IMG/VR virus record: IMGVR_UViG_3300044712_002165
Coordinates: 1-64,000 of that record
Length of the DNA: 64,000 bases
Source: a virus
Strand: one strand, 5' to 3'
A program made the translations under genes and the position numbers. Below the pieces are notes generated by a model that was not told the origin of the DNA, did no database searches, and worked only from the letters and a program-made list of their open reading frames with translations. This document shows, one piece after another, positions 7,175-10,214 of the stretch; the first letter of the stretch is position 1; each line of letters opens with the position of its first letter.

Positions 7175-7595
7175 GGGGGTGTACTGGTATCGATCTGTGT
7201 AAACAGATCGGTTGCTGCGTGCCGAGGATGATCGTTGGCCTCGTAAAATCTGCGATCAAAACATCAACTGCCAACAGGCTGAGTGATGAGTCGGTCCTCG
7301 CGGAAGCGGAAGCCATCCTGGCCAACCCGGATGCTTTCCTCCCCGCGGAGGTCGAAGCCGTGGCCTAACAAGGTCACCCGGTTGCCTGTAGACGCCTGCT
7401 AAGCAGGGTCAACCGTCATCAGCAGGATCGTGGCGCTTCGAGCAGTGTCGAAGCTCCGGCAGCTGGGTCAAGCTGCACCACAGGCTCTGCGCGATTTTGC
7501 TGATTCAGCGCAGCCTGGACTCAAATCAGCTATGCACGTAGACGCGGCCGGTTGTAGACGCAGAGACGCGGGTTCAACTCCCGCCACCTCCACCA
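7175..7595 (+). ncRNA. ssrA: tmRNA (one-piece)
   Basis: The tRNA-like ends are clear. Acceptor GGGGGTG pairs with CACCTCC with the G3-U70 pair that specifies alanine. TGCCGAGG...TTGGCCTCGTAAAA matches the conserved 5' part, and GACGCGGGTTCAACTCCCGCC the T-arm before CCACCA. Length is 421 nt, against 363 nt in E. coli. A long tag frame ends in TAA at 7368. Its product would free ribosomes stalled on broken mRNAs and mark the nascent protein for proteolysis. A phage-borne tmRNA is known in some mycobacteriophages but is rare. Confidence 0.95.
7270..7368 (+). other. tmRNA tag-peptide reading frame (32 codons)
   Basis: Taking the GCC at 7270 as the resume codon, by analogy to the position of GCA in E. 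coli, the tag begins ANRLSDESVL and ends AEVEAVA, 32 residues before TAA. It is much longer than the 10-residue E. coli tag; its hydrophobic Ala end suits ClpXP-like recognition. The exact resume codon is an inference. Confidence 0.7.
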
Positions 7596-7599
7596 TTTT

Positions 7600-8220
7600 C
7601 GCGCCGCCAAGCTCCGGCTAACCGTGAGGGCTCCGTTGATCCGGTGTACGACAGTTGAAAGATGCACCGGGGAGTAGAGCCACTGTCGGCGGCGCGATTC
7701 AATTTGGTGAGCGCAGCGTCATGACCTGCGCGTTCTCGGCAAAATCCCGTCTGCATAGTGCGTACGAACGAAAGCGGCCAAGCCTGTAGAAGGCGTCAGG
7801 GTGGATATTCGTCGGTGAAAATCCGAAGGCCGAGACACCTTTTTCGTAAACAATACCGCAAAGGTTAGTGGGTTCAGCAGCATCCCGCGACGGTGGAACC
7901 CTTAGGCTGCCAGGCAGAGGTGCGGTGACTCTGCCAACGATTTTGGGGACTACGGACGCGCACCATGGTCAAAAAGCGCGTCCCCGCTGAAAGCTTCGCC
8001 TGACCAGCGTTGTGATGTAGGCTAAACCCCACGCCTGGACGATGAGTGCACGTAGTCGTCCAGTGCCCCTTTCACGAGCCGAAGGCTAGGGTTATCATAA
8101 CGGTCCTAAGGTAGCGACGCTCCGGTGACGGACTTAGCGAGGACGACGAGTCTGCTGTAGCCGTAGATAAATTGTCCGTTTCGATGACGGTCATCGCATG
8201 AATCCGCGACCCGTACAGAA
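7600..8220 (+). ncRNA. Large structured RNA derived from 23S rRNA domain IV
   Basis: No plausible gene lies in 7596-8260. Bases 8097-8117 match the 23S rRNA 1916-1936 region perfectly over 21 nt (the CGGTCCTAAGGTAGCGA element). Other blocks appear in 23S order: GTAGAG (7673), GGTGA (7706), CTCGGCAAAAT (7735-7745), AAGGTTA (7861), then AAATT (8169) and GCATGAAT (8196). About 50 extra bases separate GTAGCGA from AAATT. Perfect local helices include 7600-7608/7688-7696, 7954-7961/7976-7983 and 8035-8042/8056-8063. The rest is too diverged to be a working rRNA. Alternative: a GOLLD/ROOL-type ornate RNA that acquired rRNA pieces. Confidence 0.8.
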
Positions 8221-8263
8221 GACCGAAAAACATCCTATCCGCACACTTGCTCGTTTACAGTTT

Positions 8264-8410
8264 TGTTGGTGGTCCGAACGTGTTGCTTATCATCGGTACC
8301 GCGGGTCGCAGGTTCAAATCCTGCCGTCTCGGCTTTCGATCCGAGGCGTAGCTCAGCCTGGTTAGAGCAGCGGTCAGCATTTGCGACGCGATCCACTTGA
8401 TCACCGACTT
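8264..8410 (+). ncRNA. Y RNA (YrlA-type, circularly permuted tRNA mimic)
   Basis: The ends pair (GTTGGTG at 8265 with CACCGAC at 8402) and carry the conserved Ro60-binding elements GGTCCGAACG (8271) and CCACTTGATC (8393), as in animal and bacterial Y RNAs. The middle is a permuted tRNA: 3' anticodon strand ACCGC, T-arm GCAGG-TTCAAAT-CCTGC (8308-8324), a closed acceptor stem (8325-8332 with 8341-8348), D-arm TAGCTCAGCCTGGTTAGAGC and 5' anticodon strand GCGGT. It sits just upstream of the Ro60 gene, as in Deinococcus. Ends are approximate. Confidence 0.9.
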
Positions 8411-8531: not shown

Positions 8532-10214
8532 ATGGCAAAGATCAGCACTGCCTCGTTTCACCGTCGGCGTTCCATTCCCGTCACTGAGCCCATCCCAGGG
8601 CGCAAGGAAATGGTGCCGAACTCCACTGGTGGCTACGCCTGGAAGGTCACCGAGTGGGATCAGCTCGACCGCTTCCTGATCCTGGGCGTCACTGGCGGCA
8701 CCTACTACATCGGCGAGCGCAAGCTCACCGATGACAACGCGGCTGCCGTCAAGGCGTGCATCCAGCTGGATGCCGGCCGTGTTGTTGACCGCGTCGTCGA
8801 GGTCTCCGTCGGAGGTCTCGCGCTCCGCAACGATCCGGCCATCTTCGCGCTCGCGCTCGTCGCTGCCAGCAACGACGCCGAGGCCAAGGCCAAGGTCGCT
8901 GCTGCGCTCCCGCAGGTCTGCCGCACCGGTACGCACCTGCTGCACTACGGCGATTACGTCAACGCTTTGCGCGGCTGGGGTCCCTCGGTCCGCAAGAGCG
9001 TCGCGTCCTGGTACACCGGCCGTGAGGCCGACAACCTGGCGTTCCAGGTCGGCAAGTATCAGAGCCGCGACAACTGGTCGCATCGCGACTTGCTGCGTCT
9101 CACGCACCCGAAGGCTCCGAACGAGGCCACCGACGCGGTTTTCCGGTGGATCGTTGGCGGCATGGAGGCTGTCAACGGCCGGACCGTGAAGCGCAAGGAC
9201 GGCAGCTCGGTCAAGTACCCGTCGCTGCGCGAGCACCTGCCTCGGTTCCTGGCTGCCATGGAAGAGGTCAAGGCAGCCAAGAAGGCCAAGGATGTGGTTC
9301 GGCTCATCACCGAGCACAACCTGCCTCGCGAGGTCATTCCGACCGAGTGGCTCAATGAGGTCGAGGTCTGGGAGGCGCTTCTCCAGAAGATGCCGCTCAC
9401 GGCCATGATCCGCAACCTGGGCAAGATGACCTCCATCGGCCTGGTTCGCCCGCTCTCCGCGGGCGCACGGCTCGTCAAGGAGCGCCTTGGCAACAAGGAC
9501 TACCTCCGGAAGAGCCGCATTCACCCAATCAGCGTCCTCGTGGCTGCGCGGACCTACGCGCAGGGCAAGGGCGTCAAGGGCAGCCTGTCCTGGAGCCCTG
9601 TGCCCGCCGTCCAGACGGCGCTGGATGAGGCGTTCTACGCCACGTTCGGCAACGTCCGGAAGATCGGCAAGCCGGTTCTGATCGCGCTCGACGTGTCCGG
9701 TTCCATGGGTTCGTCCGCGGCCGGTACGGTCCTGCGCGCCTGCGAGGCGACGGCAGCAATGTCGCTCGTCTGGCTGAACACGGAGCCCGAGGTTCACGTG
9801 TTCGGTTTCGGAAGTACGTTCCGCGAACTCGGCATCCGCAAGGGCATGACCCTGGAGGCTGCGTGCCAGAAGGCCGTGCAGGCGAACTTCGGTTCGACCA
9901 ACATCGGTCTGGCGGTTGAGTACGCGGAGCAGCACAAGATCGATGTCGGCGGCTTCATCGTCATGACCGACAACGAGGGCAACACGGGTGAGCAGCCCGC
10001 AAAGGTGATGGAGCGCTACCGCAAGGCCCGCGTTCCTGACGCTCGCCTCGTGATGGCTGCCACGTCAGCCAATCAGTATCGGGCAAGCGACCCGAACGAC
10101 AAGTGGAGCCTGGATGTGGCGGGTTTCGATCCGTCAGTCCCCACGGTCGTCAACAACTTCATCCGCGGCAGCGCGGGCGAGGAAACTGTTGACGAGCCCG
10201 AGTCGGAGGAGTAA
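8532..10214 (+). CDS. rsr: Ro60/Rsr-like TROVE protein
   Basis: A 560-residue protein from the ATG at 8532. The N-terminal ~370 residues form a TROVE (Ro60) HEAT-repeat ring that binds Y RNA and misfolded RNAs. Residues from ~380 are a von Willebrand A domain with an intact MIDAS: DVSGSMGSS, the GSTNIGLAV threonine, and VMTDNEGN. Length fits bacterial Ro60. With the Y RNA upstream this is a full Ro60 RNP locus. Bacterial Rsr works with PNPase in rRNA maturation and decay, which fits the rRNA-like RNAs next to it (inference). A UUCG-loop terminator follows. Confidence 0.96.
   Translation: MAKISTASFHRRRSIPVTEPIPGRKEMVPNSTGGYAWKVTEWDQLDRFLILGVTGGTYYIGERKLTDDNAAAVKACIQLDAGRVVDRVVEVSVGGLALRNDPAIFALALVAASNDAEAKAKVAAALPQVCRTGTHLLHYGDYVNALRGWGPSVRKSVASWYTGREADNLAFQVGKYQSRDNWSHRDLLRLTHPKAPNEATDAVFRWIVGGMEAVNGRTVKRKDGSSVKYPSLREHLPRFLAAMEEVKAAKKAKDVVRLITEHNLPREVIPTEWLNEVEVWEALLQKMPLTAMIRNLGKMTSIGLVRPLSAGARLVKERLGNKDYLRKSRIHPISVLVAARTYAQGKGVKGSLSWSPVPAVQTALDEAFYATFGNVRKIGKPVLIALDVSGSMGSSAAGTVLRACEATAAMSLVWLNTEPEVHVFGFGSTFRELGIRKGMTLEAACQKAVQANFGSTNIGLAVEYAEQHKIDVGGFIVMTDNEGNTGEQPAKVMERYRKARVPDARLVMAATSANQYRASDPNDKWSLDVAGFDPSVPTVVNNFIRGSAGEETVDEPESEE

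Follow-up and report, generated by a model that had tools for sequence, protein, structure and literature searches.

A probable Y RNA with a 23S rRNA H69-like module beside the Ro60 gene of a virus

Why a viral genome should hold 21 nt identical to 23S rRNA around helix 69 (H69), between a tmRNA and a Ro60 (Rsr) gene, is the question raised by the stretch of DNA analyzed here (64,000 nt, termed the window). The source virus record is 75 kb in length and contains head protease, major head protein, and tail sheath genes (PHROGs). It also holds a tRNA array and a tmRNA. From 5′ to 3′, the order is the tmRNA, a stretch at 7596-8073, a predicted unit denoted H69-Y, a YrlA-like RNA, and the Ro60 gene (Table 1). 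The unit is probably a Y RNA in which a module mimicking 23S H69 takes the place of the usual tRNA mimic.

Table 1. Features at and around the predicted H69-Y unit of the window.
Feature	Position	Strand	Basis or remark
tmRNA, upstream of the H69-Y unit	7175-7595	+	RF00023, 127 bits
H69-Y RNA, whole predicted unit (Y-type end stem and 23S-like module, 181 nt)	8074-8254	+	Unconstrained fold; family model match inside
Outer stem, 5′ strand ACGAGC	8074-8079	+	Fold; pairs with GCUCGU 8249-8254
Y motif CGAA (8080-8083), then inner stem 5′ strand GGCUAGGGU	8080-8092	+	Inner stem pairs with CCUAUCC 8234-8240
21-nt core shared exactly with 23S (3′ strand of H69 plus the following junction)	8097-8117	+	Exact match
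23S-like effector module	8098-8225	+	R1 model, 51.1 bits; covariation
H69-like closing helix CGGUC/GACCG	8101-8105/8221-8225	+	
H71-like hairpin UCCG-GUGA-CGGA, then UAGCGA (8135-8140)	8121-8132	+	Family alignment, helix 2
H67-like helix GGACGA (8141-8146)/UUGUCC (8172-8177)	8141-8177	+	Centroid fold; family helices 3-5
H68-like helix ACGG (8187-8190)/CCGU (8211-8214), with UCGC/GCGA inside	8187-8214	+	Centroid fold
Y motif 3′ side GCACACUU (8241-8248), then outer stem strand GCUCGU (8249-8254)	8241-8254	+	
YrlA-like Y RNA	8268-8405	+	Permuted tRNA-like module 8300-8372 inside Y stem
Ro60 (Rsr) gene	8532-10214	+	Frame open from 8505, ATG at 8532; PF05731 8e-44, PF25045 5e-40

The locus and its neighbors

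Domain IV of 23S rRNA forms the intersubunit face of the 50S subunit, and an earlier note on this DNA had read 7600-8220 as an RNA of ~600 nt colinear with that domain. Its starting point is real: the core ATAACGGTCCTAAGGTAGCGA is identical to 23S around H69, and by our own estimate the chance expectation of an exact 21-mer between either strand of the window and a 2.9-kb 23S is ~1e-4. The absence of a gene is also borne out, as no convincing ORF lies over 7600-8230. The colinear likeness has to be given up, since Rfam gives no LSU match over the region and the window holds no native-order match to 23S. The 11-mer CTCGGCAAAAT and the shorter blocks of 5 to 8 nt, once taken as further traces of 23S, are within chance expectation. 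A k-mer control over the initial 13 kb of the window counted 19 sense and 19 antisense 11-mers in common with 16S/23S, where shuffles gave 14; only the 21-mer stands out clearly. A free-standing ribosomal mimic of 600 nt is barely credible, given that the 21-mer alone speaks for it, that LSU models find nothing beyond this 21-mer, that the other k-mers are at background, and that the relatives described below have in common only the 181-nt unit. What stands is that 8074-8254 is very probably an RNA gene mimicking the H69 region of 23S domain IV; the larger size, the colinear order, and the stand-alone mimic do not.

The Ro60 gene downstream is complete, with TROVE and vWA domains in a profile search. 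The encoded protein matches the solved Ro60 structure 1yvp over its full length (3e-107), and a histidine aligns with His187, a Y-RNA contact residue (PMC4030889). The neighboring YrlA-like RNA scores 32.6 bits against RF02553 (E 8e-5), under the curated cut-off, and folds with the stem GGUGGUC-CGAA-CGUGUUGC/GCGACGCG-AUCCACUU-GAUCACC. The stretch at 7596-8073, between the tmRNA and H69-Y, is separate from the unit and is without an ORF or an Rfam match. Its fold beats that of most shuffles (z −1.94) and opens with a strong GCGCCGCC/GGCGGCGC helix; it is possibly another structured RNA. A weak match to the R1 model described below falls within it (7816-7943, 11 bits), and an h18-like reading of 7610-7626 was dropped after the k-mer control.

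A family with a Y-type end stem

The module between the stem strands is a member of an RNA family new to Rfam, where no family matches it, and to the literature searched. As the earlier note had supposed, no RNA of such a kind is described, either in Rfam or in the open papers searched. A pattern search for the core with any next base except the A of true 23S returned 16 viral and 26 bacterial contigs. One of the 26 bacterial contigs, L097, is a true 23S gene and was set aside. About half of the 16 viral contigs carry an isolated core alone. All remaining contigs, viral and bacterial, belong to a single RNA family, located for the most part in tRNA arrays. Two members missed by the pattern, L133 and L134, were found by covariance model, and the 18-nt core is exact in both. 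Altogether, relatives of H69-Y are found at ~40 loci, in tRNA-rich phages and in bacterial tRNA arrays. The phage members, which belong to large phages, are L001/L003/L025, L002, L004, L005, L014, L016, L027, L046, L060, and the window, while the bacterial members are from Planctomycetota, Verrucomicrobia, Myxococcota/Deltaproteobacteria, and Okeania genomes. Conservation of the core is partly a selection effect, because most members were found through it. L093 and L105 have 29 nt identical to 23S, including the whole H69 loop, and L093 is among the members keeping GUAACUAUAACGG. Two further patterns, CTCGGCAAAATN{0,2}CCGTCTGCATAG and the core followed by AB, gave no matches; a third, GTGCCGTAA..GGTNNACG, recovered L004 and L027 and otherwise coding noise.

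The RNA is single-copy in the ten genomes that were searched whole. It is also rare, occurring in 3 of 199 Planctomycetota genomes with the seed genome among the three, which fits the expectation for mobile arrays. The conservation in relatives that the earlier note had called for is strong, but for a smaller and different RNA, the 181-nt unit.

The covariance model denoted R1 was built from 17 bacterial sequences and no phage sequence. It matches the window at 51.1 bits (E 1.3e-10, 480 kb searched), compared with 22-28 bits for bare 23S cores. Across 29 members, in an alignment that is fitted to the model, 89.8% of cells pair and 21 of the 26 base pairs change on both sides; a slid structure reaches at most 48.5%, and no shuffle is as good. 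An unfitted alignment shows the same trend, with 85.3% paired and 13 pairs changed on both sides. For the window unit, fold energy is unremarkable (z −0.63).

The end stem of the window unit, seen in an unconstrained fold, is ACGAGC-[CGAA]-GG.UAGG/CCUA.CC-GCACACUU-GCUCGU, with a short outer stem of 6 bp. End stems are complementary in 27 members, with 212 Watson–Crick pairs, 9 GU pairs, and 1 mismatch (221 of 222 standard) among 23 different 5′ strand sequences. The table of these stems was anchored at the motif, with strands picked by hand in place of noisy automatic scans for flanking helices, so it is a description and not a blind test. The Rfam YrlA consensus, acggCgaAUGCuuggGgaaCUAc...AaAcUuGucGccg, has the same conserved bases beside the stem: CGAAUGC..GGGAnUACA on one side and CUUG-UCG on the other side. 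In human hY1, the Ro60 site of the stem has CGAA facing (U)GCACUU. The end stem of the window unit shows the pattern of the Ro60-binding motif and is a putative Ro60 site. An earlier 16S h27-like reading of the GGGAnUACAU leader was dropped after the k-mer control, the leader being the Y-stem motif. Integron attC was also dropped as the source of the GYCCRAC..GUYGGRC repeats, because these covary (GCCCGAC/GTCGGAC, GTCCAAC/GTTGGAC) and fit the Y motif.

Several members are elaborated. L104:308-538 has a long insert in a strand of the H71-like hairpin, L090:6526-6729 and L092:535-770 have long inserts in the cap loop, and the cap hairpin is repeated in L101:3952-4101. A second, diverged core, TTACGGCCCTAAGGTAGTGCGG, lies at L002:1004-1029, ~500 nt downstream of the H69-Y of L002. 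Many more Y-type stems occur in the arrays of L102:4184-4862, L134, L004, and L014; their payloads are a permuted tRNA (YrlA-like) in some and short or unassigned in others.

Isolated cores of 17-21 nt, with the rest of the unit absent, occur in L006, L007, L008, L009, and L010, with near copies in L011, L012, L013, and L015. They lie at intergenic or gene-start sites of phages, often beside terminator hairpins; in L006 and L007 the core is exact and the flanks have diverged. Read on the opposite strand, such cores are antisense to 23S H69. At L097:3889-6300, a long insert at the I-CeuI position splits a genuine 23S gene within H69. Solitary cores of this kind in other phages and a 23S gene interrupted at the same position would both suit a conserved stretch that is a DNA site, such as the target of a homing endonuclease or of integration, and not an RNA. 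That reading is highly improbable, because the RNA covaries strongly and, at most of the ~40 loci, has a Y-type stem and is linked to Ro60.

Likeness of the module to permuted 23S H67-H71

Native 23S has the order GACGCCUGCCCGGUGCCGG-[H68]-CCGGUAAACGGCGGCCGUAACUAUAACGGUCCUAAGGUAGCGA..[H71]..GCACGAAUGGCGU. The array RNAs have instead the order (CCGUAACUAUAACGG)UCCUAAGGUAGCGA-[hairpin]-YAGYGA(AUGGCG)-[cap]-..UGCCcACUGCCG-[hairpin]-CGGUAAGgGCGGCCG. Judged by sequence, the helix CGGUC/GGCCG that closes the module is the H69 helix. The module as a whole is well supported, although not proved, to be 23S H67-H71 in circularly permuted order, with the old H67 end capped and the new ends, opened in H69, joined to the Y stem. 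In the window, the H67-like helix is capped by the hairpin GUCU..AGAU; L005 has ACGA/UCGU where the window has the strands of the H68-like helix.

The alternative is convergence, in which a Y RNA took up the 3′ strand of H69 alone and is surrounded by unrelated helices, with no permutation. We consider this unlikely. A matrix of H67/H68 blocks ranks the position just 3′ of the core as the best of the whole locus in 7 loci, where 0.44 would be expected (Poisson 4e-7). The H69 pairs CGGUC/GGCCG persist in the closing helix in 94% of cells; in several members, the H71-like hairpin is still followed by GAAUGGCG. What convergence has in its favor is that Planctomycetota members match H67/H68 weakly and that a permuted 23S covariance model is decisive for L004 alone (35.9 against 15.0 bits). 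Other members score no better under this model than bare cores, and because bare cores behave alike, L004 alone counts in the permuted-versus-native comparison. The matrix does not single out the window, whose H67/H68 placement 3′ of the core is not significant by itself. Permutation is thus well supported for the family but not proved, least of all for the window member.

Ro60, possible roles, and known systems

Ro60 is associated with H69-Y beyond the window. The gene is present in 22 of 27 bacterial genomes with the RNA, against 11 of 199 Planctomycetota genomes drawn evenly, and in 5 of the 11 RNA-bearing phage contigs, the window counted. It was not found in the remaining 5 genomes and 6 phage contigs, the latter mostly fragments. 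All three RNA-positive genomes of the 199-genome sample carry Ro60 (Fisher 1.3e-4; 0.002 without the seed genome). RNA and gene are 0.2-3.8 kb apart in 17 cases, usually within 2 kb. In L102, the next unit has the same type of stem and holds a permuted tRNA, making it a YrlA-like RNA. H69-Y is absent from the six cultured Ro60 phages searched, a Ro60 protein scan of the viral contig collection gave no match, and linkage to RtcB was seen in genome G006 alone.

We infer expression of H69-Y, its binding to Ro60, and the whole of its functional step. With YrlA as the model, the end stem would attach to the Ro60 ring, leaving the module pointing outward. The module may then be recognized by a usual partner of the H69-H71 face, such as the 30S subunit, an rRNA enzyme, a ribosome-associated factor, or an rRNA-processing nuclease. 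H69-Y would tether the phage Ro60 particle to 23S rRNA and its partners, or keep it off them, and thereby steer RNA decay or quality control during infection. This adaptor or address role, drawn from the YrlA analogy, is the likeliest one, held tentatively. That distant members retain the core strictly would be consistent with a conserved partner that recognizes it.

More speculative is a general scheme in which Ro60 particles use interchangeable address RNAs, each a permuted translation RNA (a tRNA in YrlA, the intersubunit face of 23S in H69-Y). In phages and mobile tRNA arrays, the 23S version might serve to anchor Ro60, perhaps together with a nuclease, to ribosomes of the host or to their precursors.

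The main rival to the address role is a nuclease decoy, in which mimics of RNase targets (tRNAs, YrlA, and 23S H69) soak up defense ribonucleases that cut tRNA or rRNA. H69-Y does sit in arrays of tRNAs that often score poorly, and YrlA has been proposed as a competitor for anticodon nuclease (PMC7790460). H69 is also a real target, as a ribonuclease cuts eukaryotic ribosomes there (PMC13189344). Against a decoy, the bases that follow the core, AAUUCC in 23S, have not been retained, and a decoy would need neither a Ro60-binding stem nor an adjoining Ro60 gene. We know of no bacterial defense nuclease that cuts H69, which also counts against it, and the decoy is on balance somewhat unlikely.

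Among Y RNA modules, the tRNA-like module is the sole elaborate one in the papers searched. If H69-Y is what it is here proposed to be, a second module of the same build copies another translation RNA, which would suggest that mimicry of translation RNAs is general in bacterial Ro60 particles. To our knowledge, no phage-encoded rRNA mimic is known from earlier work, and H69-Y would be the first. Rsr assists maturation of 23S rRNA, and Y RNA sequesters Rsr (PMC4030889). H69-Y, if correctly read, would offer a handle on the reported link of Rsr to 23S maturation and decay.

Among known systems, GOLLD and ROOL RNAs are located near tRNAs in phages, as is H69-Y. They differ in size, and their Rfam 15 models, which the earlier note had proposed to try, give no match at the locus. 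Metazoan Y RNAs, such as hY1, have the same CGAA/GCACUU internal loop and a full-length Ro60 with His187; their upper stem and loop are unrelated to H69-Y. The counterpart in the ribosome, 23S H67-H71, shares with the family 18-29 identical nt in H69 and the junction, the H69 closing pairs, and H67/H68-like blocks. H69-Y differs from it in its permuted order, missing upper H68, capped H67, length of ~130 nt, and location outside rRNA genes. Searches of open papers, with the main reviews and the bacterial Y RNA survey lying outside their reach, found no Y RNA with an rRNA-like module.

The closest known system is YrlA (RF02553), with a stem that binds Rsr and a tRNA-like domain that is bound by PNPase and is a substrate for modification by tRNA enzymes (PMC8394870). 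Its covariance model gives no match to the H69-Y unit at E up to 10. The two RNAs share the stem motifs CGAAUGC..GGgaaCUAc/AcUuGucG and a locus beside Ro60, and each has an effector module that is open at a loop and connects there to the stem. In YrlA the tRNA is broken in the anticodon loop and its acceptor ends are joined; the module of H69-Y would likewise be opened at H69. The effector of YrlA is tRNA-like, and that of H69-Y resembles 23S H69.
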